In this document: positions 44,262 to 63,931 of the stretch, piece by piece
How the letters are laid out: each line of letters starts with the position of its first letter
How positions within the stretch are numbered: the first letter of the stretch is position 1
Assembly: GCA_947446025.1 (NCBI GenBank)
Contig: CANFEY010000013.1
Span: forward strand, 1 to 64,000
Length of the DNA stretch: 64,000 bases
Source of the DNA: Bryobacterales bacterium
GTDB lineage: Bacteria > Acidobacteriota > Terriglobia > Bryobacterales > Bryobacteraceae
Reading direction: 5' to 3'
Position numbers and translations under genes: made by a program
Notes under the pieces: generated by a model
Database searches by the model: none
The model's input: only the letters and a program-made list of their open reading frames with translations
What the model was told of the DNA's origin: nothing

Positions 44262-44267
44262 CAGGGA

Positions 44268-44337
44268 TAGGGACAGTATACTCAACTCCCGAATTCGCCG
44301 CCTCGGGAAAATTCGGGAATTGAGTATACTGTCCCTA
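44268..44337. repeat. Dispersed palindrome, copy 1
   Basis: 28-bp arms (one mismatch) around a 14-base loop; each arm begins with GGGACAGTATACTCAA. The left end is 6 nt from the rpe start and the right end overlaps the first base of the GT-C gene's ATG, so it fills the whole space between two divergent genes. Each arm carries TATACT. Confidence 0.9.
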
Positions 44338-45992
44338 TGGTGCCCGGGTCGATCCTACGCGCTGGGATCTGGCTACTCGCCACCGCCTTGGCATATTGGC
44401 CACTCCCATTTCTGGAACCGCTGCGGGAATGTGCGGAGGCCGCATTGCGAACGCTCGCGCGGCGACCCATTTGGTGCTGCGCGGGAGCGGCGTTGGCGGT
44501 GCTACTAGTACGAGCCGTGCTGCTATTCGCGTCCGGCATCCCACAGCCGTTCGTGCATGACGAGTACGGCTACCTGCTCCAGGCGGACACATTCGCCTCA
44601 GGACGCCTGACGAATCCTACCCACCCGATGGCGGAGTTTTTTGAAACTCCCTACATCTTTCAGTCTCCCTCATACAACGCTAAGTTCCCGCCCGGACAGG
44701 GGCTTGTGCTGGCGCTGGGCCAGGTCCTATTCGGGCATGCCTGGTATGGTGTCTGGCTCAGCTGCGGAGCGTTGGCGGCGGCGCTGTGCTGGGCGCTGCA
44801 GGGCTACTTCCGGCCCACGCTCGCCCTGGTGGGCACGATCCTGATCCTGCCGCTATGCATCTTCTCCAATTGGATGAACAGCTACTGGGGAGGCGCGGTT
44901 GCAGGGATTGGAGGGGCGCTGGTATTTGGGGCGTTGCCTCGACTGCGCTCGGGGAGCGCCTACGCAGGGGTGCTTCTGGCGGCGGGCGCGATCCTGCTAC
45001 TCCTAACGCGCCCGTTTGAAGGAGCGCTGGTCCTGGCACCGGCGCTCGTTGTCATTCTCTTCCACCGCTTGAACTGGCGTCAGTGGACGGCACTGACGGT
45101 TCCCGCGCTCGCTGGTCTGGCCTTCTGGGGTTACTACAACGCGCGCGTCACAGGGGACCCGCTGCACATGCCCTATGCCGAATACGAAGTGCAGTATCCG
45201 ATGACGTCGCATTTCAACGTCCTGCCTCAACCTCCGCGAAAGGACTTCGACCGGCTGAGCATTGCTTGGGTGGACCAGTGGGAACGGGAGGCCTGGAACG
45301 AAGCGCGAAGACCAGGGTTCGCGATGCAACGCTTGCGCGATTTGTGGGCGCGGGCTGGAACGTTCGTGGGGTCTGCCATGCTGCTCACGCCGATGTTTTG
45401 GTTCGCCGCGAAATGGTGGCGGGATCGAAACCTTCGCGCTGCGGGCGTGGCCGTCGTCCTCAGTGTGTGGGCTGCTTTTGTTGAGGTTCTCTATTTCGAT
45501 CACTATGCCGCGCCGGCGTTGGCACCCCTGCTGATGCTGGTGGTGGCGGGCCTGGGGTATCTGCGCCAGTACCAGTTTTCGCCGTCGCGAACGGTTGGCG
45601 CTTGGCTCGCATGCACCCTACCGGCGGCGGCTTTGGCTACTGCATTGATTGGTCCTGTCGCGGCGCTGCTGGCCGGTGCCCCGCTGATCCCTGCTCCCTC
45701 GGGCGCGCGGGAATATCTGGAAAACTTGCTGGCGGAGGAGTATGGTCCTCACTTGGTCTTTGTGCGGCGCACCGGGGCCGGGGCGATCAATTGGGCTCTC
45801 TATCCCCGCGTCGAGTTCGCGCCGGTGCAGATTGAGTTCGTCCACAACGGGGCAAACATCGATCAGCAGTTCGTCGTGTGGGCGCACGACCTGGGCGAGA
45901 AGCAGAACCAACGCCTCCGCGAGTACTACAAAGACCGCAGGGTCTGGACTTACGATCCTGAGGTGGACCCCGGCAGGCTGCACGTGAAGTAG
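44337..45992 (+). CDS. GT-C family membrane glycosyltransferase-like protein
   Basis: A 551-aa integral membrane protein with about 11-12 hydrophobic segments. The N-terminal loop motif FVHDEYGYLLQADTFASGRL resembles the acidic catalytic loop of PMT/ArnT-like GT-C enzymes that use lipid-linked sugars. The C-terminal 100 residues form a soluble domain. The ATG overlaps the palindrome, and there is no Shine-Dalgarno. Acceptor and donor unknown. Confidence 0.8.
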   Translation: MVPGSILRAGIWLLATALAYWPLPFLEPLRECAEAALRTLARRPIWCCAGAALAVLLVRAVLLFASGIPQPFVHDEYGYLLQADTFASGRLTNPTHPMAEFFETPYIFQSPSYNAKFPPGQGLVLALGQVLFGHAWYGVWLSCGALAAALCWALQGYFRPTLALVGTILILPLCIFSNWMNSYWGGAVAGIGGALVFGALPRLRSGSAYAGVLLAAGAILLLLTRPFEGALVLAPALVVILFHRLNWRQWTALTVPALAGLAFWGYYNARVTGDPLHMPYAEYEVQYPMTSHFNVLPQPPRKDFDRLSIAWVDQWEREAWNEARRPGFAMQRLRDLWARAGTFVGSAMLLTPMFWFAAKWWRDRNLRAAGVAVVLSVWAAFVEVLYFDHYAAPALAPLLMLVVAGLGYLRQYQFSPSRTVGAWLACTLPAAALATALIGPVAALLAGAPLIPAPSGAREYLENLLAEEYGPHLVFVRRTGAGAINWALYPRVEFAPVQIEFVHNGANIDQQFVVWAHDLGEKQNQRLREYYKDRRVWTYDPEVDPGRLHVK

Positions 45993-45996
45993 GAAG

Positions 45997-46062
45997 TAGG
46001 GACAGTATACTCAACTCCCGAATTACGGGGCGATAATTCGGGAGTTGAGTATACTGTCCCTA
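45997..46062. repeat. Dispersed palindrome, copy 2
   Basis: Perfect 28-bp arms around a 10-base loop, same arm sequence as copy 1. It lies 4 nt after the GT-C stop and 29 nt before the ATG of the metallo-beta-lactamase-fold gene. Confidence 0.92.
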
Positions 46063-46091
46063 CTGTCCCAAACGGCGCTAGAATGGAAGCC

Positions 46092-52714: not shown

Positions 52715-52791
52715 TAGGCCACGGATGGACACGGATCAACACGGATAGAGCAAGAATCCCATCGGTGTTCATCCGTGTGCATCCGTGGCTA
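52715..52791. repeat. CACGGAT-repeat stem-loop
   Basis: A 32-base left arm with three CACGGAT units and a right arm with ATCCGTG units form a long imperfect stem around a short loop. Similar CCACGGAT-rich elements are widespread in intergenic DNA of diverse soil bacteria. It sits between convergent genes and may also end transcription. Confidence 0.7.
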
Positions 52792-53046: not shown

Positions 53047-55677
53047 CTATCGTAACTCCGAAGCCGGGGACTGGATCAGCCGGTGCCAATCGGTGACCAA
53101 GTTGAGCGTGGGTTCGGTCTGGTCGGCTTGGAGCGTGATGAGGAACTTCTGGCCGTCGGCGGACGGGGCGTAGTGATATTGGTTCCTCTGAATCACGATG
53201 ATGCGGCTGCGGTAGGTGAAGAGTTGTTCCGGCGTGCCCAGGGTGAGCTTTGCGCCAGTCTGCACGGGCACGGCCATCATAGCCCGCAGGTCGGCGCCCA
53301 CGGCGCTGACGAAAAATAACTCCTTGCCGTCGGCGCGCCAGCGCGGCTCGCGACCGCCGATGAGGGAAACCGGCATCTTGTTGCCGCCGTCCGGGAAGGA
53401 GCGCAGCAAAACTTCGTCGCGCCCGGTTTCGCTTGAGGTGTAGGCAACCCAGCGTCCGTCAGGAGACAACTGAGCCTGGCTCTCGACGCTATCCGTCACC
53501 AAGAACTTGACGGGCTGCCCGGGTTTGCCGGCGGGATCCGGCAGGTACCAAATGTCGCCACGAGTCTTCGGATGGCTCTCGGTGTAGAACAAGAAGCGTC
53601 CGTCTTTGGTCCACTGCGACGGCGTGATGGGGTTGGGGCTTGCCAGCAACTCCTCTTCATTGCCGCCTGCGGAGTTAGCGCGATAGATCTTGCCGGAGAC
53701 GAAGTACGCAACGCGGCCGCCGTCGGGTGCCCAGACCATGGGGGCCAGACCGCGGGCGTTGTAGCGGGACTCGGCTCCTCTCCGCAGGTCGAACAAGCGC
53801 GTTCCTTGGTTGTTGTTTAGTAAAGTGGCCGCCTTGGTTTCGTCCGGGGATAGCGACACGCCCTGCTGGTCCGCAAGTTGCCCGGCCTTTCCGGCCGGCT
53901 TGCCGTTTCGATCGAGCCAGGTGAGCTGGGAATCCTGGGAAGGCGCGGCCTGGTAAAGTAGCATGCCGTCCGCTGTGACGGACGCGGCAACCTGTTGAAG
54001 GGTAAGCGAAACGGCGGCTGGAGAAATCACTGCGAACGGGTCGCCGACCGCGGCGAGCCTGGCTTCATCGAACGGCTGCGCCATCAAGGTCGTGTCGCGC
54101 AGGAACAGAAGGTGTCCGAGTGTGGCTCCCTTGGCGGGAGGCGCGTACACGACGCCGGAGTTGTCCGCCAGGATCATGCGGGGTTTGGGATCATTCAACG
54201 CGGCCAGGTACACGTGCCGCTGGCTGGCAGGCCCGGTTAAGTAGAAAAAATGGTTGCCGTCGGGCAAGAACTCGGGTAGCCATTCACTTACCCCGGGTTC
54301 GGGCTTCGTGACTGCCGTGCATACGCCATCCGCTGCGCCGTTTACAACCTTGACCTTGCGCAGCGGACCCGCCTCACTGCCGAAGAGGACCACGCCGTCG
54401 CGGTTCCACGTGCCTAAAAAGCCGAGTCCGGTTTCGCCGCACAGCTCCTGCGCCGGACCGCCCGCGGCGGGCACTACTTTGAGCTTACCATCGTTGAAGA
54501 AGCCGATGAAGCGGCTGTCCGGGGACCAGAACGGCGAGCGCAATATCTCGGTTCCCGGCAGGGGTTGAAAGGTGTTCGTGTCCAGGGAGCGTACCCACAG
54601 CTTGCTCGTGTTGTCCTGGCGCAGCACGACGAAGAGCTTGCGGCCATCCGGAGAGATTCCGCTCCAGGCACCGGTACTGAGGGCGGCGGCTTGCGGCGGC
54701 GTGATGGTGACGTGCAGCAGCTTTTCTTCTGGGGCGGCGCGCCAGGGTGCCCACATGGCTATGGCTCCCGCAGCGAGGGCGGTCATGAGTCCAGCGGCGG
54801 CCCAAGCGGGCCACATTGCGCGGGGCTTCACGGCGACGGGCGCGGGGGTGGATTCTTCGTCGGCGAGGAGGAGCTTCGCGTCGCCTATGGATTGCAGGCG
54901 CTTGGCGGGGTCCTTTTGCAAGCACGCGCCGATCAGTTTGCGCATGCGCTTGGGGATGGCGCTGAGGTCGGGCTGATCTTTGACGACGCTGGCGAGCACG
55001 TCGGCTAGATCCTCGCCGGTGAAGAGGCGCTTACCGGTGAGCATTTCGTGGAGGACGACGCCGAAGGCCCAGATGTCGGCGCGGTGATCCACGGGCTTGC
55101 CCTTGGCTTGCTCGGGAGCCATGTAGGCGGCGGTGCCTAGGATCATGCCGGCTTCGGTTAGTGCCATGCTCATCGTCAGGGTGGGGGATTCGTCGGTGCC
55201 CGCTGTGGTCTCAGCCCTGGGCGTATGGCCGACTTTGGCGAGTCCGAAGTCGAGGACTTTGACGACGCCGTCGGGTTTGACCTTGATGTTGCCGGGTTTC
55301 AGGTCGCGATGGGTGATCTTTTTCTCATGCGCGGCTTCGAGGGCCAGCGCGACCTGCAGAGCGATGGCTTCGGCTTCTTCCAGCGGGACGGCGCCTTCTT
55401 TGATGCGCTCGCCGAGCGTCGGCCCTTCGACCAACTCCATCACGATGTAATCGGGCCCGACGTCGTAGATTTGGCAGATGTTGGGGTGGTTGAGCGCGGC
55501 GATGGCTCGGGCTTCGAGTTCGAAGCGGGCGCTGAAGCGCTGGGCCGAAGTCTTGATGGCGACATCGCGGCGCAGGCGTGTGTCGTGGGCTTTGTAGACT
55601 TCCCCCATCCCTCCGCGGCCTATGGGGGCCCCCACGATTTCGTAGGGTCCAAGCCTTGTGCCGGGCGCGAGGGACAT
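53047..55677 (-). CDS. Ser/Thr protein kinase with transmembrane helix and WD40/PD40 sensor
   Basis: An 876-aa protein. Hanks-type kinase domain (glycine loop [11 protein letters not shown] at 20-30, Lys42 in [38 protein letters not shown]), one transmembrane helix ([17 protein letters not shown]) and a C-terminal extracytoplasmic beta-propeller of TolB/WD40-like PD40 repeats. The kinase acts in the cytoplasm on unknown targets. The beta3-alphaC region is shorter than usual (VAIK followed by [10 protein letters not shown]). ATG 55677; the open frame extends 33 codons beyond. Downstream of relBE by 17 nt. Confidence 0.93.
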
Positions 55678-55694
55678 GCGATCAATTCTATCAA

Positions 55695-55994
55695 CTAAGA
55701 AAGCCGCTCGCGCCACTTGGCCGGGTCGCGCGACGTGTGGAAGACAGCGTACACCGTGATCCGGGTCTCGGAACAATCGAAAAAGACTGCATACGGGAAG
55801 CGCCGGAGGAGCGTTCGCCGATACTCCTCGTGCACCCGTGAAAACAAGAGAGGTTGTCGCTGGACCAGAGCAATGCGCGCATCCAGCGCGGCCAAGAAGC
55901 GCTCACCGAGTCCAACGCCACGGGCCTCGTACCAGCCGTATGCCTCCGCGATGTCCTGCTCTGCCTCTGGCGCAATGACCAGCTCAGCGGCCAT
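55695..55994 (-). CDS. RelE/ParE-family toxin
   Basis: A 99-aa protein of the RelE/ParE fold (PEAEQDIAEAYGWYEARGVGLGERFLAAL, YRRTLLRRFPYAVFFDC, VYAVFHTSRDPAKW). It probably inhibits gyrase or translation. The antitoxin gene overlaps its start by 11 nt. The pair lies between two kinase genes on the same strand. Confidence 0.9.
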   Translation of the reverse strand: MAAELVIAPEAEQDIAEAYGWYEARGVGLGERFLAALDARIALVQRQPLLFSRVHEEYRRTLLRRFPYAVFFDCSETRITVYAVFHTSRDPAKWRERLS

Positions 55995-56208
55995 AGTGGC
56001 TGCGTACCCGCTGCTTCACGTCTTCCCATGCGGCACCCGCGGCGGGGTTGGCCTGTAGATTCGCCTTCCGGCGGACGAGTTCCTGCTTCTGCCACTCGTG
56101 AACCGGTACATCCTCCGGCGTCGAGGCTAGGTCGTCCCACAGGTCCTCCACGAGTTGGAGCTTTTCGGACGGACTGAGGTCGAATACTGACGGCGCGTTG
56201 GAGTTCAT
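55984..56208 (-). CDS. Antitoxin, addiction-module (Unstab_antitox-like) protein
   Basis: A 74-aa protein: LSPSEKLQLVEDLWDDLAS and VHEWQKQELVRRKANLQANPAAG match the addiction-module antitoxins paired with RelE/ParE toxins. ATG 56208, 42 nt after the frameshifted kinase stop. Antitoxin before toxin is the usual order. Confidence 0.88.
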   Translation of the reverse strand: MNSNAPSVFDLSPSEKLQLVEDLWDDLASTPEDVPVHEWQKQELVRRKANLQANPAAGAAWEDVKQRVRSHYGR

Positions 56209-56250
56209 GGCATGCCCTCTGCAATCATTCTCGCAAATTGCGAGGACCCT

Positions 56251-58841
56251 TCATTGCTTGTTGGCGTTCTCGAACAAGCGATGCCAGTTGGTGATGAGTG
56301 TGAGCGTCGGTTCGCGGGTGGCCAGCGGAACCGGGACCAGAAACTCTTGGGCGTCGGCGGAGACGGCGTAGGAATACGCGTTGGTTTCGATGATGGTGAA
56401 GGTCGGCGACGGCAGCTTGAAGAGGAGTTGTTGCGGGCCCATGGAAAAAGTTGCGCCCGGCAGGATCGCCCTGGCAGCCATGATGCGGCCTTCGGAAGTG
56501 AGATCCCTGAAGGTGTACAGCAGTTCCTTGCCGTCGGTCCGCCAGTGTGGTTCCACTCCTATATTGGTGACTTGGAACTTGACCGCGCCATCCGGAAAGG
56601 ACCGTACCCAGACGCCGCCAGTGGGTCCGCCCCAGACGGCATAGGCGACCCAACGGCCATCGGGTGACAACTGGGCCTGACTTTCATTTGCTGGGGTGTC
56701 CAGGAATTTGACGGGCTCGCCGGGTTTGCCGCCGGGATTCGGCAGGTACCAAATATCGCCTTCGTTCTTGGGATCCATGGCGGTGTAGAACAGGAACTTG
56801 TTGTCGCTTGTCCACTGCGAAGGGCGGCTGATGACGGGGGGCTCGAGCAGCTTCTCTTCTTCGCCGCCCGTGGCGCTGTTGCGGTAGATCGCTGCGCCCA
56901 CGCGATACGCGACGCGGGTGCTGTCGGGTGACCACACCAAACCAGCGAGGTCGCGCGCGTCGAATCGGGACTCCGACTTCGCGGTGAGGTCGTGGAGCCG
57001 CGTAAAGAGGTCGGGCGCGATGTGGCTTATCGCTTTTGTCCCGTCGGGAGACAGCGAGTATCCATTCTGATTGGCCGGGGACCCGACTTTGCCGGTCTCC
57101 TTGCCGTTACGGTCCAGCCAGGTGAGCTGGGTGTCGCGCGACGGGCCGGTCATGTAGAGCAGCAGGCCGTCCGCACTGACGGAAGAGCCAAGGGCCCCGC
57201 TGGTGTTTGTGCTGACCGAAGGTAGTAGCGCGAAGGGATCACCGACGGGTTCGCGCGCGTCCGCATCGAAGGGCTGTGCCATCAAGACCGTGTCGCGCAG
57301 GAACAGCAGATGGCTCAACTTCTCGCCCGGAGCCGCGGGAACCGAGAACGCCGCGGAGTTTTCGCTGAGGATCTTTCGAGGCGTTGGGGCACTCAGAGCC
57401 GCCAAATAGATACCTCGCTGTTCGGGTGTCGCATTGACCCTGTAAATGAAGTGGTCGCCATCGGGAAGAAACGAAGGGTCGCCCTGGCGGGTTGTGCCGA
57501 CCTCATACTTTGTCACCGGAGTGCAGGTTCCGCTGCCCGCGCCGTTGGTGATCTTCGTTTGACGCAGCGGACCCGTGGAACTCCCAAAGAGGATTGTGCC
57601 GTCCTGTTTCCAAGCTCCTCCAGCGCCTAAGCCAGTGTCGGAGCAGAGATCCTGGACGGGGCCTCCCGACGCGGAGACGAGGCGGAGTTTGTCGTCACTG
57701 AAAAAGGCGATGAAGCGGCTGTCGGCGGACCAGAAAGGAGCGCGCACGTTGCTCACGGGGATGAATTGGAACTCGGACGAGGCGAGCGGGCGGACGTAGA
57801 GTCCACCAGCCGCTGTGATAAAGAGCCGACGCCCATCGGGAGAGATCGCCTGGTACGAACCAAGTTGTTTTCCCTGCGGCGGGTCGATGTTGACGGCGAG
57901 TGGACGTTCGGGGGGAGCGCCGCGCCATGGGGCCCACAATGCGACGCCCGCCGCGACACTCATCGCCGCTGTCGCGGCCCATCCAGGCCACGTCGAGGGT
58001 TGCTTCACGGCCACGGGCGGAGCGGTGACTTCCTCTTCCACTAATAACAACTTCGCATCGCCGATGGAATGCAGGCGCTTCGCAGGGTCCTTCTGCAAAC
58101 ACGCATGGAGCAACTTGCGCACGCGCTTGGGGACCACTGTCAAATCCGGCTGATCCTTGACCACGCTCGCGAGCACGTCCGCCAGATCCTCGCCGGTGAA
58201 GAGGCGCTTGCCGGTGAGCATTTCGTGGAGGACGACGCCGAAGGCCCAGATGTCGGCGCGGTGATCCACGGGCTTGCCTTTGGCTTGCTCGGGAGCCATG
58301 TAGGCGGCGGTGCCCAGGATCATGCCGGCTTCGGTTAGTGCCATGGTTAGGGTGGGGGAGTCTTCGCCGAGAGTGTCAGGCGGAAGCGCCTGACCTACCT
58401 TTGCTAGTCCGAAATCCAGGACCTTCACTACGCCGTCGGGTTTGACCTTGATGTTGCCGGGCTTCAGGTCGCGATGGGTGATCTTTTTTTCGTGGGCGGC
58501 TTCGAGTGCCAGGGTGACTTGCATCGCGATCGACTCGGCTTCGTCGAGGGGAATGGCGCCCTCTTTGATGCGCTCGCCTAGGGTGGGGCCTTCGACGAGT
58601 TCCATGACGATGTAGTCGGGGCCGACGTCGTAGATCTGGCAGATGTTGGGGGGTTGAGCGCGGCGATGGCTCGGGCTTCGAGTTCGAAGCGGGCGCTGAA
58701 GCGCTGGGCCGAAGTCTTGATGGCGACATCGCGGCGCAGGCGTGTGTCGTGGGCTTTGTAGACTTCCCCCATACCCCCGCGACCTATGGGGGCCCCCACG
58801 ATTTCGTACGGTCCAAGCCTTGTGCCGGGTGCGAGGGGCAT
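56251..58841 (-). pseudogene. Ser/Thr kinase-WD40 paralogue disrupted by one missing base
   Basis: Same architecture as the gene at 53047-55677 (N-lobe, kinase core, transmembrane helix, PD40 repeats). In the first the DNA reads AATGTTGGGGTGGTTGAG-type sequence (codon CAC for His in NHPNICQ); here the T is lost (near 58650), giving GGGGGG and shifting the frame. The kinase N-lobe (from ATG 58841) and the rest therefore sit in different frames. If the base were present the protein would be about 863 aa. Loss of kinase activity is predicted; a sequencing error in the G-run is possible. Confidence 0.88.
58375..58399. repeat. Palindromic repeat inside a kinase reading frame
   Basis: An 8-bp stem (GTCAGGCG/CGCCTGAC) with a four-base loop is embedded in frame and encodes QALPPDT. 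Including its GGTAG flank on the minus strand it matches the intergenic hairpin at 4906-4925 at 22 of 25 bases. The tandem paralogue has an unrelated spacer here, so this looks like an insertion. Confidence 0.65.
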
Positions 58842-61971: not shown

Positions 61972-63247
61972 GCGATGCCGTCTCCAGCCCCAGCCAGTTG
62001 CCCGGGGTCGAGTAGAAGGCCGGTTCCAGGTGCGTGACTCCGCCCTGCGTGCGCGCGTAGAGGTCCTGATAGAGGGCGTGGAATTCCGCGCACACTGCGG
62101 GCCAGCCGAAGCGCAGAGCCGTTTCTCGGGCTGCCACCGTGCGAAGGATGCGCTTCTGGGGATTCTGTAAGATATCGAGGACGGAGGCTGCGAACGCCGG
62201 GCCGGTCGCCTCCGACAGCCAGGCGTTGCCTTCGTGGGCGTAGGATGTGACGCCGCCGGAGTTGGGGGCGACCAGGGGAGTTCCGGCGGCCATGGCTTCC
62301 AGCGGCGCGATGCCGAAGGGCTCGCGAGGGTTGGGGTGCAGGAATGCGTCGACGCTGGCGAACAAATCGGCGAGCGCGTCGCGGTCGCGTTCGTGGCCGA
62401 TGTAAACGACCGCCCCTGGTACGCGCGCGTTCGCGGCGTCCAGAAACTCCTGCCGCGAGGGTCCATCGCCCGCCACCAGAAGCTTGCACGACGCGCGGGG
62501 CAGTTGCTCCAGCATGTCGAGCAGTAATCCCAGATTTTTCTCCGGTGCCAGACGGCCGGCATACAGCAGCAACGCGCGCGACGCATCACTGCCCAAATGT
62601 CTTCCGCGTAGCACCTCCGACCGGCGCTCCGGCGTGAAGCGCGTTACATCGACGCCCATGCCGCGAATCCACACGCCGCGCGTCACCTTGTGGCCGCGGC
62701 TAGCTGCTTCAAGTTCTCCGGCTACATCACGGGACACGGCGATATGGTGGTCGAACTGCGGGAAGTAGGCGCACTTCATAAAAGCGCGGGCAAACACGGC
62801 CGCGGTGCGTTGCCATCGCGAGTACACATTCAGCGTCCGGTCCATCCGCTCGCAACTTATGCCCACCACCGCTGGCCGGTGCCGCAGCTCCGGAAGCATG
62901 CCGACGCGCGCCAAACCGGCTAGGTACGGCAGCGTGTACTTGTCGTTGACTTCGATTACATGCGGCTGTTCGGCGCCCAGGATCTTGCGGATCGGGCTGC
63001 CCGGTGGCAGATACTTCTGCGGATACAGCACGCGGTATTCAGGATGAATCGGCGCGCGCGGCGCACGCACGTGGTGAATGCCGCCGAATTCGCCCACCCG
63101 TTCATAGCCGTCCTCCGATGACGGCACCACCAGGCGCATCTCCCAACCAATCTGGTTGGCGCTTGCCATCAGAGCCTTGTAAAAGGTCCCGATCCCGCCT
63201 GAAGAAGCGTGCCAGGCGTTGGTGATGTGCAGTGTCTTCAGGACCAC
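61958..63247 (-). CDS. Family GT4 glycosyltransferase
   Basis: A 429-aa GT-B enzyme. N-terminal acceptor domain (TLHITNAWHASSGGIGTFYKAL), C-terminal donor domain (LLYAGRLAPEKNLGLLLDMLEQL, HPNPREPFGIAPLEAMAAGTPLVAPNSGGV with the EX7E motif). It transfers a sugar from a nucleotide donor to a growing glycan or lipid. GTG 63247 is preceded by AGGAG; it overlaps the upstream membrane gene by 10 nt and ends overlapping the CE15 gene by 14 nt. Confidence 0.88.
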   Translation of the reverse strand: MVLKTLHITNAWHASSGGIGTFYKALMASANQIGWEMRLVVPSSEDGYERVGEFGGIHHVRAPRAPIHPEYRVLYPQKYLPPGSPIRKILGAEQPHVIEVNDKYTLPYLAGLARVGMLPELRHRPAVVGISCERMDRTLNVYSRWQRTAAVFARAFMKCAYFPQFDHHIAVSRDVAGELEAASRGHKVTRGVWIRGMGVDVTRFTPERRSEVLRGRHLGSDASRALLLYAGRLAPEKNLGLLLDMLEQLPRASCKLLVAGDGPSRQEFLDAANARVPGAVVYIGHERDRDALADLFASVDAFLHPNPREPFGIAPLEAMAAGTPLVAPNSGGVTSYAHEGNAWLSEATGPAFAASVLDILQNPQKRILRTVAARETALRFGWPAVCAEFHALYQDLYARTQGGVTHLEPAFYSTPGNWLGLETASPISS

Positions 63248-63804
63248 TCCGGACTCCTGGCCGGCAATCGTCCGAATCCGAAACCTGAAGTGATGAAGGT
63301 CCAAATGGTGACGGGAAGGGACCGCATATCCGCTTCGAGGGACTGTCCACCCTGACCCACCACCAATACTCCGCGCCGCATGGCGTGCAGGTTGAAGGAC
63401 GTGGAGACTAGCGTGAGGATCAGAGACGCCAGGATGCTGGTGCGCAGGTTCGGGGTGCCGCGCGCCCAATGCAGGCAGAATTCGATGGCGTGGGAGACGC
63501 CGGGGACTCCGATCAATACTACTAAAGTTGCTGCCCAACGGGGCTCGGATTTGCGGAAGGCCTGCGTCAGCGCGCCGTAGAATCCGGCGCTGAAGCAGCG
63601 GTAGATGAATTCGGCGAACATCGCGCCCTGTGCCGCTTCCATGCCGGAGGAAAGATTGGCGAAGAAGAAGACCGCTCCCCGGCACAGGGAACTGAAGATG
63701 GCGGACTTCCAATTCCATTGGCGGATCAGCATGGGCACCGGGTCGCGAAGGAGGTTGAGCAGGGTCTGGCCGGGTCCCAAACATTTTTCAGAGAAATGTT
63801 CCAC
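63238..63804 (-). CDS. Membrane protein of unknown function
   Basis: A 188-aa protein with three to four hydrophobic segments (AVFFFANLSSGMEAAQ, AATLVVLIGVPGVSHAI, ILASLILTLVSTSF, TIWTFITSGFGFG). No known domain. GTG start at 63804; it overlaps the GT4 gene, with which it is probably co-transcribed, hinting at a role in the same glycan pathway. Its start lies 55 nt from palindrome copy 3. Confidence 0.7.
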   Translation of the reverse strand: MEHFSEKCLGPGQTLLNLLRDPVPMLIRQWNWKSAIFSSLCRGAVFFFANLSSGMEAAQGAMFAEFIYRCFSAGFYGALTQAFRKSEPRWAATLVVLIGVPGVSHAIEFCLHWARGTPNLRTSILASLILTLVSTSFNLHAMRRGVLVVGQGGQSLEADMRSLPVTIWTFITSGFGFGRLPARSPEWS

Positions 63805-63859: not shown

Positions 63860-63931
63860 GGGACAGTATACTCAACTCCCGAATTCCGCCGCCGATCCGG
63901 GAAATAATTCGGGAGTTGAGTATACTGTCCC
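63860..63931. repeat. Dispersed palindrome, copy 3
   Basis: Perfect 26-bp arms with the same sequence as the other copies around a 20-base loop. It separates the stop of the partial truA (63936) from the membrane protein start (63804), where it lies upstream by 55 nt. Confidence 0.92.

Follow-up and report, generated by a model that had tools for sequence, protein, structure and literature searches.

Palindromic repeats in a Bryobacterales genome as probable paired ends of a RAYT/TIRYT transposon

Three palindromes in the window, which is the whole stretch of 64,000 nucleotides analysed here, are very probably non-autonomous, MITE-like dimers of the terminal inverted repeats (TIRs) of a RAYT/TIRYT transposon, with the transposase gene absent. 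Each of them would consist of two terminal inverted repeats joined around a short loop, and may have originated by internal deletion. The transposase would belong to the Y1 HUH enzymes, among those called TnpA-REP. Published studies of TnpA-REP and IS200/IS605 lead us to infer a single-strand mechanism, in which the ends, folded as single strands, would be recognised by the enzyme, cut and joined, and the copies would be placed in intergenic DNA, mostly next to stop codons. Within the source genome (G000; 4.43 Mb in 120 contigs, 99.88% complete), these palindromes are possibly orphaned or served in trans by a related RAYT on contig C21. Judged from sequence comparison, the same ends bound Y1 genes in other genomes, and the inner half of the arm is the 3' end of the coding sequence in a gene of this kind. 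The features concerned are as follows.

44268..44337, no strand: palindromic element copy 1 (C13a), TA plus 26-nt arms, 14-nt loop
44270..44295, plus strand: left arm of copy 1, its inner half complementary to the 3' end of a RAYT coding sequence (..EFGS-stop)
45995..46064, no strand: palindromic element copy 2 (C13b), 31-nt perfect arms, 8-nt loop
46035..46060, minus strand: right arm of copy 2, which reads FGS-stop and perfectly repeats the left arm
46061..46069, plus strand: TACTGTCCC directly beyond copy 2, repeating the arm's outermost 9 bases
63860..63931, no strand: palindromic element copy 3 (C13c), 26-nt perfect arms, 20-nt loop

A preliminary description had placed three copies with a shared arm here, and all three were recovered with small corrections of length, the arm common to them being GGGACAGTATACTCAACTCCCGAATT. 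Its two copies with perfect arms are copy 2 (31 nt) and copy 3 (26 nt); the arms of copy 1, at their fullest extent, are 29 nt long with one mismatch (44267-44338). Loops of 14 and 20 nt were confirmed for copies 1 and 3, but the loop of copy 2, given as 10 nt, is 8 nt. A 20-nt arm with at most 3 mismatches has 6 matches in the window and 0 in 100 shuffles, and when folded as single-stranded DNA the copies surpass their shuffles by 11-15 sd. All three palindromes are genuine and far above the level of chance. The TACTGTCCC beside copy 2 may have been left behind by an earlier event.

How are the three copies placed among genes? Copy 1 ends on the first base of the ATG that opens the ORF at 44337, and the rpe start is 6-8 bp away. 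Copy 2 lies 4-6 bp past the stop (45990-45992) of the same ORF, and a metallo-beta-lactamase start follows about 20 bp on. Copy 3 has on one side, 4 bp off, the stop at the 3' end of a gene for tRNA pseudouridine synthase (minus strand, from 63936) and on the other, 55 bp off, the start (63804) of a minus-strand ORF. Copies 1 and 2 lie close to gene starts, and copies 2 and 3 adjoin stops (4-6 and 4 bp). The names rpe and metallo-beta-lactamase were returned by Pfam on the window ORFs, whereas the proteins called 'GT-C' (the 44337 ORF) and 'membrane protein' (63241-63804) received no Pfam family.

The family is not confined to these loci. With the 16-bp outer arm and at most 2 mismatches, 30 matches were found in the source genome, and 0 with the reversed pattern. 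They form 13 inverted pairs (57-110 bp) and 4 solo arms, and the window holds 3 of the 13 pairs. Contig C13, 82 kb of the 4.43-Mb genome, carries three pairs, two of them only 1.7 kb apart. At arm positions 17, 18, 24, 25 and 27 the two arms of the same element agree in 10-12 of 13 cases, while 6.3-7.2 are expected from chance agreement between elements; the subtypes GAATT and GATCT occur in this genome. Loop lengths range from 5 to 58 nt. The loops had been described as unrelated, which does not fully hold: 3 of 66 loop pairs in the source genome are alike at p<=0.01 where 0.66 are expected, and two of these three join copy 3 with copy 1 and copy 3 with a copy on contig C19. In the G002 clade 4 of 28 loop pairs are alike at p<=0.01, one of the four being two G011 copies that have the same loop in opposite orientation. 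Since some copies have related loops, the elements were probably copied as units, with loops changing fast.

A scan of a genome collection for exact pairs, from which the source genome was possibly excluded, returned three loci, in MAGs titled Bryobacteraceae (G355), Bacteriovoracaceae (G356) and Elusimicrobia (G357). Among 60 relatives and 296 other genomes of the phylum, no exact pair was found outside the source genome; a single arm with at most 1 mismatch is present in 6 of the 60 relatives, mostly with GTACACT. Six arm matches in viral contigs, all single and unpaired, were read as chance.

In the Elusimicrobia MAG a Y1 transposase gene is enclosed by a full pair and two decayed arms. Thirty RAYT loci were inspected, one per genome and the source genome's own among them, and in four of them an arm (at most 2 mismatches) stands beside the gene: in G002 the gene is flanked by two inverted arms, in G011 by a single arm on one side and two tandem arms on the other, and in G022 and G001 it has an arm on the 3' side. 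At the same stringency G355 has 50 arms, G356 9 and G357 3, and in G355 and G356 an arm bounds or overlaps a RAYT. Arms are found on both sides of the RAYT in G002, G011, G355, G356 and G357, and in G024 a broken RAYT fragment lies about 70 bp from an arm. The link between arm and RAYT occurs in 8 of 10 arm-bearing genomes, same-genus species among them; the two others are G012, with one 1-mismatch match, and the source genome. The suggestion that the mover was an IS200-like (RAYT) transposase located elsewhere is thus supported, as RAYT genes elsewhere are bounded or overlapped by these very arms.

At 21 of 26 RAYT loci tested, the inverted repeat around the gene exceeds all of 100 shuffles. 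GGGACAG occurs in 15 of these 21 TIRs, whose inner halves differ; among the 26 paired arms of the source genome, 4 have GGGGACAG and the rest GGGACAG or AGGACAG. The RAYT stop codon lies inside the arm in G002, G011, G022 and G355, and the G356 gene runs through the arm. Read in the transposase frame, all 30 arms of the source genome give (I/F/L)-G-X-stop (TGA), the termini being FGS in 14, IGD in 6, IGS in 3, FGN in 2 and five others once each. The RAYT of G355 ends LEIGN-stop, like these readings. The simplest reading is that two element ends have been joined, and the arms may be regarded as fossil transposase C-termini.

Six of the proteins were compared with family models. Pfam Y1_Tnp (PF01797) is above cut-off in five, and the same number match the NCBIfam model of REP-associated tyrosine transposases below its cut-off, the exception being a weak ORF on contig C43 of the source genome; the IS200 model matched three of six, all under cut-off. 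A PDB sequence search gave two matches (E 0.07 and 0.1), both Y1 transposases. All 7 aligned RAYTs retain the HUH motif (NHxH) and the YxExNP tyrosine without variation. On a tree of 22 proteins the arm-bearing RAYTs do not form one clade and stand in two places, one holding the same-genus species and G355 with one other RAYT inside (weak support), the other holding the Elusimicrobia and Bacteriovoracaceae enzymes. The arm-bearing label is nevertheless clustered, with 3 changes versus 6.1 in shuffles. In the available portions of Quentin et al. 2018 (PMC6006769), the TIRYT-like enzymes are subclass 2.1 of TnpA-REP (RAYT group 1), the second largest Y1 subclass. The proteins resemble it in a length of about 238 aa and in NHVH, W[EQ] and YIELNP-like motifs; its C-terminal HTH was not found in the six proteins by Pfam at E<=0.01, the tail itself being present.

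The nearest described system is that of Di Nocera et al. 2013 (PMC3733652). In the portions of that paper available, TIRYTs or TIRtrons are RAYT-like genes flanked by TIRs, some of which overlap the gene; several TIRs have GGGGWSAS, TIR copies also occur as singles, dimers and groups, the TIRYTs of Acidobacteria form a sharply defined group, and it is proposed that the mobility of the TIR repeats be assessed. By that account our elements are similar in having a Y1 gene between inverted repeats (in other genomes, not in G000), dispersed copies and a gene 3' end overlapped by the repeat; where the published repeats often have GGGGWSAS, those here have GGGGACAG or GGGACAG. They differ in that the dimers here are short near-perfect palindromes, which the source genome apparently keeps without a cognate gene, and in that filled and empty sites are shown. 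Thus, as far as the available account goes, the window palindromes are a new family within the TIRYT/TIRtron kind; neither GGGACAGTATACT nor GGTGTCAGACACC, nor their complements, is printed in the text of the open-licence literature searched, figures and supplements aside. The REPINs and GTAG REPs (Nunvar 2010, PMC2817692; PMC3116915; Corneloup 2021, PMC8266576) share with them, in the portions available, non-autonomous palindromic pairs and inverted copies on either side of a Y1 HUH transposase. However, REPs have a 20-50-nt palindrome after a GTAG foot, whereas a single arm here is no such palindrome, no constant GTAG foot exists (the flanks vary) and the copy number is low, at 13 pairs. IS200/IS605 elements have a transposase of the same Y1 HUH family (PF01797) but, in the portions of PMC8266576 and PMC6006769 available, subterminal hairpins, in contrast to the long inverted ends here.

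Have these elements moved? Flanks taken from eight loci of G002 and three of G001 served as queries against G001, G002, G011 and G022. Arm-free colinear sites were found for the G002 copies on C82 (in G001), C19 (in G001 and G011), C63 (in G001) and C6 (in G022), while G002:C44 is filled in G001 too, with decayed arms there. At orthologous sites, then, four G002 copies are absent elsewhere and one is shared, and filled sites in one species with empty ones in another support, for the arm family, the mobility that had been proposed; these empty sites belong to copies of sister species, those of the window copies being not base-exact. In the other comparisons G022:C187 and G011:C198 have other DNA without arms, the G001:C21 locus meets a 2.1-kb gap in G002, and five are not colinear; the G002 loci C1, C4 and C74 stood outside the comparison. 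For the window itself, a syntenic region in G014 (72% identity) has neither the C13a nor the C13b palindrome. The C13b gap is 42 nt in G014 versus 99 nt in the source genome, a shortening of roughly one element. At C13a the two gaps are 65 and 75 nt, so this copy, compared with G014, is no clean insertion; this was counted against the preferred explanation. At G002:C44 (L108, flanks of 1453-1503) the left flank holds a stretch that repeats the right flank in inverted form (19 of 22 bases), and this inverted copy is absent from the left flank of the filled G001 site (L209, G001:C50); in this one case the palindrome appears to have extended into host sequence.

The bases next to the arms show some symmetry. 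The 13 left flanks have gta before the arm in 5 and ata in 2, the others being tta, ttg, gga and aga. In 9 of 13 pairs the flanks are inverted, not direct, over 1-7 bp, a TA duplication being indistinguishable from an inverted TA. Anchored contiguous extension past the arms sums to 35 versus 17.7 in shuffles (p 0.0002), and counting matches over 8 bp gives p 0.02. When 40-nt flanks are aligned without an anchor, no excess appears in the source genome (p 0.97) or in G355-357 (p 0.98); the G002 clade has p 0.016, and p 0.28 when the first 8 bases are dropped. As there is no general excess in unanchored alignment, the symmetry is restricted to the first bases, and may belong to the arm itself. 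A wider proposal joins two statements: that TIRYT ends leave inverted copies of adjoining bases on both sides, by fold-back or template-switched synthesis, the palindromes growing outward into host DNA; and that two transposase lineages, some 40% identical and found in MAGs from three phyla, have kept one 16-bp end unchanged, since its inner part must encode the C-terminus and also be substrate. Taken together, we consider them clearly unlikely. Tandem units of about 8-10 bp also adjoin some arms (L002 1482-1500, L012 1593-1613, L115 560-591, L070 1415-1437), such as ggagatgta twice, tccattccc twice and ggaaaccc several times; in G002 such short units are included in what the empty sites are missing.

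There is a further question of concern, which enzyme would serve the family in the source genome? One full RAYT, on C21, was found there, with a different outer end. It is bounded by inverted arms AGATCGGTGTCAGACACCACAACTCCCGAACT, with a different outer half and an inner half nearly the same as in the window arms. No RAYT with exact window-type ends was found in this genome, which also counted against the preferred explanation, and a profile search of the genome with seven RAYTs gave no second one beyond an E 0.4 scrap. It is conceivable, though on balance improbable, that the C21 RAYT, with its outer end GGTGTCAGACACC, mobilises the window family in trans via the shared inner module CAACTCCCGAAYT. 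It is the sole full RAYT found, and the inner module AACTCCCGAWYT has 34 matches in the genome, in both element kinds, versus 0 in the control. However, the C21 RAYT groups with the G014 RAYT, which has a GGTGTCAGACACC end, apart from the arm-bearing RAYTs, and the outer 13 bases, the best-conserved part of the window arms (GGGACAGTATACT ends), differ. Since the one full RAYT carries another outer end, the window family may be orphaned there, its cognate gene lost or missed by the assembly, or C21 may serve both. A genome keeping repeats apparently without their gene is of interest in itself. GGTGTCAGACACC marks a second, more abundant palindrome family, seen at G000:C21:44110-44867 and at 61 exact places in the genome. 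The window has no exact copy and one 2-mismatch match, as chance predicts. Among 30 sampled copies (L146-L175), 20 are AAATGGTGTCAGACACCATTT, 3 have other forms and 7 carry the inner module AACTCCCGA, as bounding the C21 RAYT.

Position relative to genes bears on two other explanations. Genes were called, in place of an annotation, by a finder that had learned codon usage from 28 window ORFs, and the resulting context was compared with 4545 length-weighted intergenic points of the window alone, so P values are rough. A stop codon lies within 25 bp of 11 of 13 pairs, versus 14% of random intergenic points (P 2e-8), and a start within 30 bp of 6 of 13, versus 24% (P 0.07). The bias is genome-wide to gene ends, and the siting at gene starts suggested by three copies is reversed. 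Might the palindromes then be selected 3'-end hairpins, kept since they end or stabilise transcripts, as proposed for REPs? The excess next to stops, the very stable folding and the agreement of both arms of an element at variable positions would fit. However, copies 1 and 2 lack a terminator-like T tract, sister species gain or lose copies, and arm agreement is equally expected from common descent or palindrome repair; the transposase genes between the same arms are left unexplained, and we consider this explanation very unlikely. Operator-like palindromes, binding a regulator of a gene set, would explain the symmetry and the nearness of copies 1 and 2 to starts, but are scarcely credible with arms of 26-31 bp, loops of 5 to 58 nt, convergent genes around 4 of the 12 pairs with both neighbours called (6 are tandem, 2 divergent), transposase genes between the same arms and sites that come and go. 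Nor did the label 'regulatory' find positive evidence: a promoter scan of copies 1 and 2 gave one promoter-like match, 9 of 12, using the TATACT of copy 1, where 0.5 are expected, and Rfam has no match across window positions 43000-64000.

Two other repeats of the window should be noticed. At 52718-52789 there is another inverted repeat, with 29-nt arms 90% complementary and 14 nt between them; its arms are built of CACGGATNNACACGGAT units, two per arm, and it is a candidate dispersed repeat. At 53499-58841 two adjacent copies about 3.2 kb apart are 70-96% alike in blocks of 194-300 nt, which is a tandem gene duplication.
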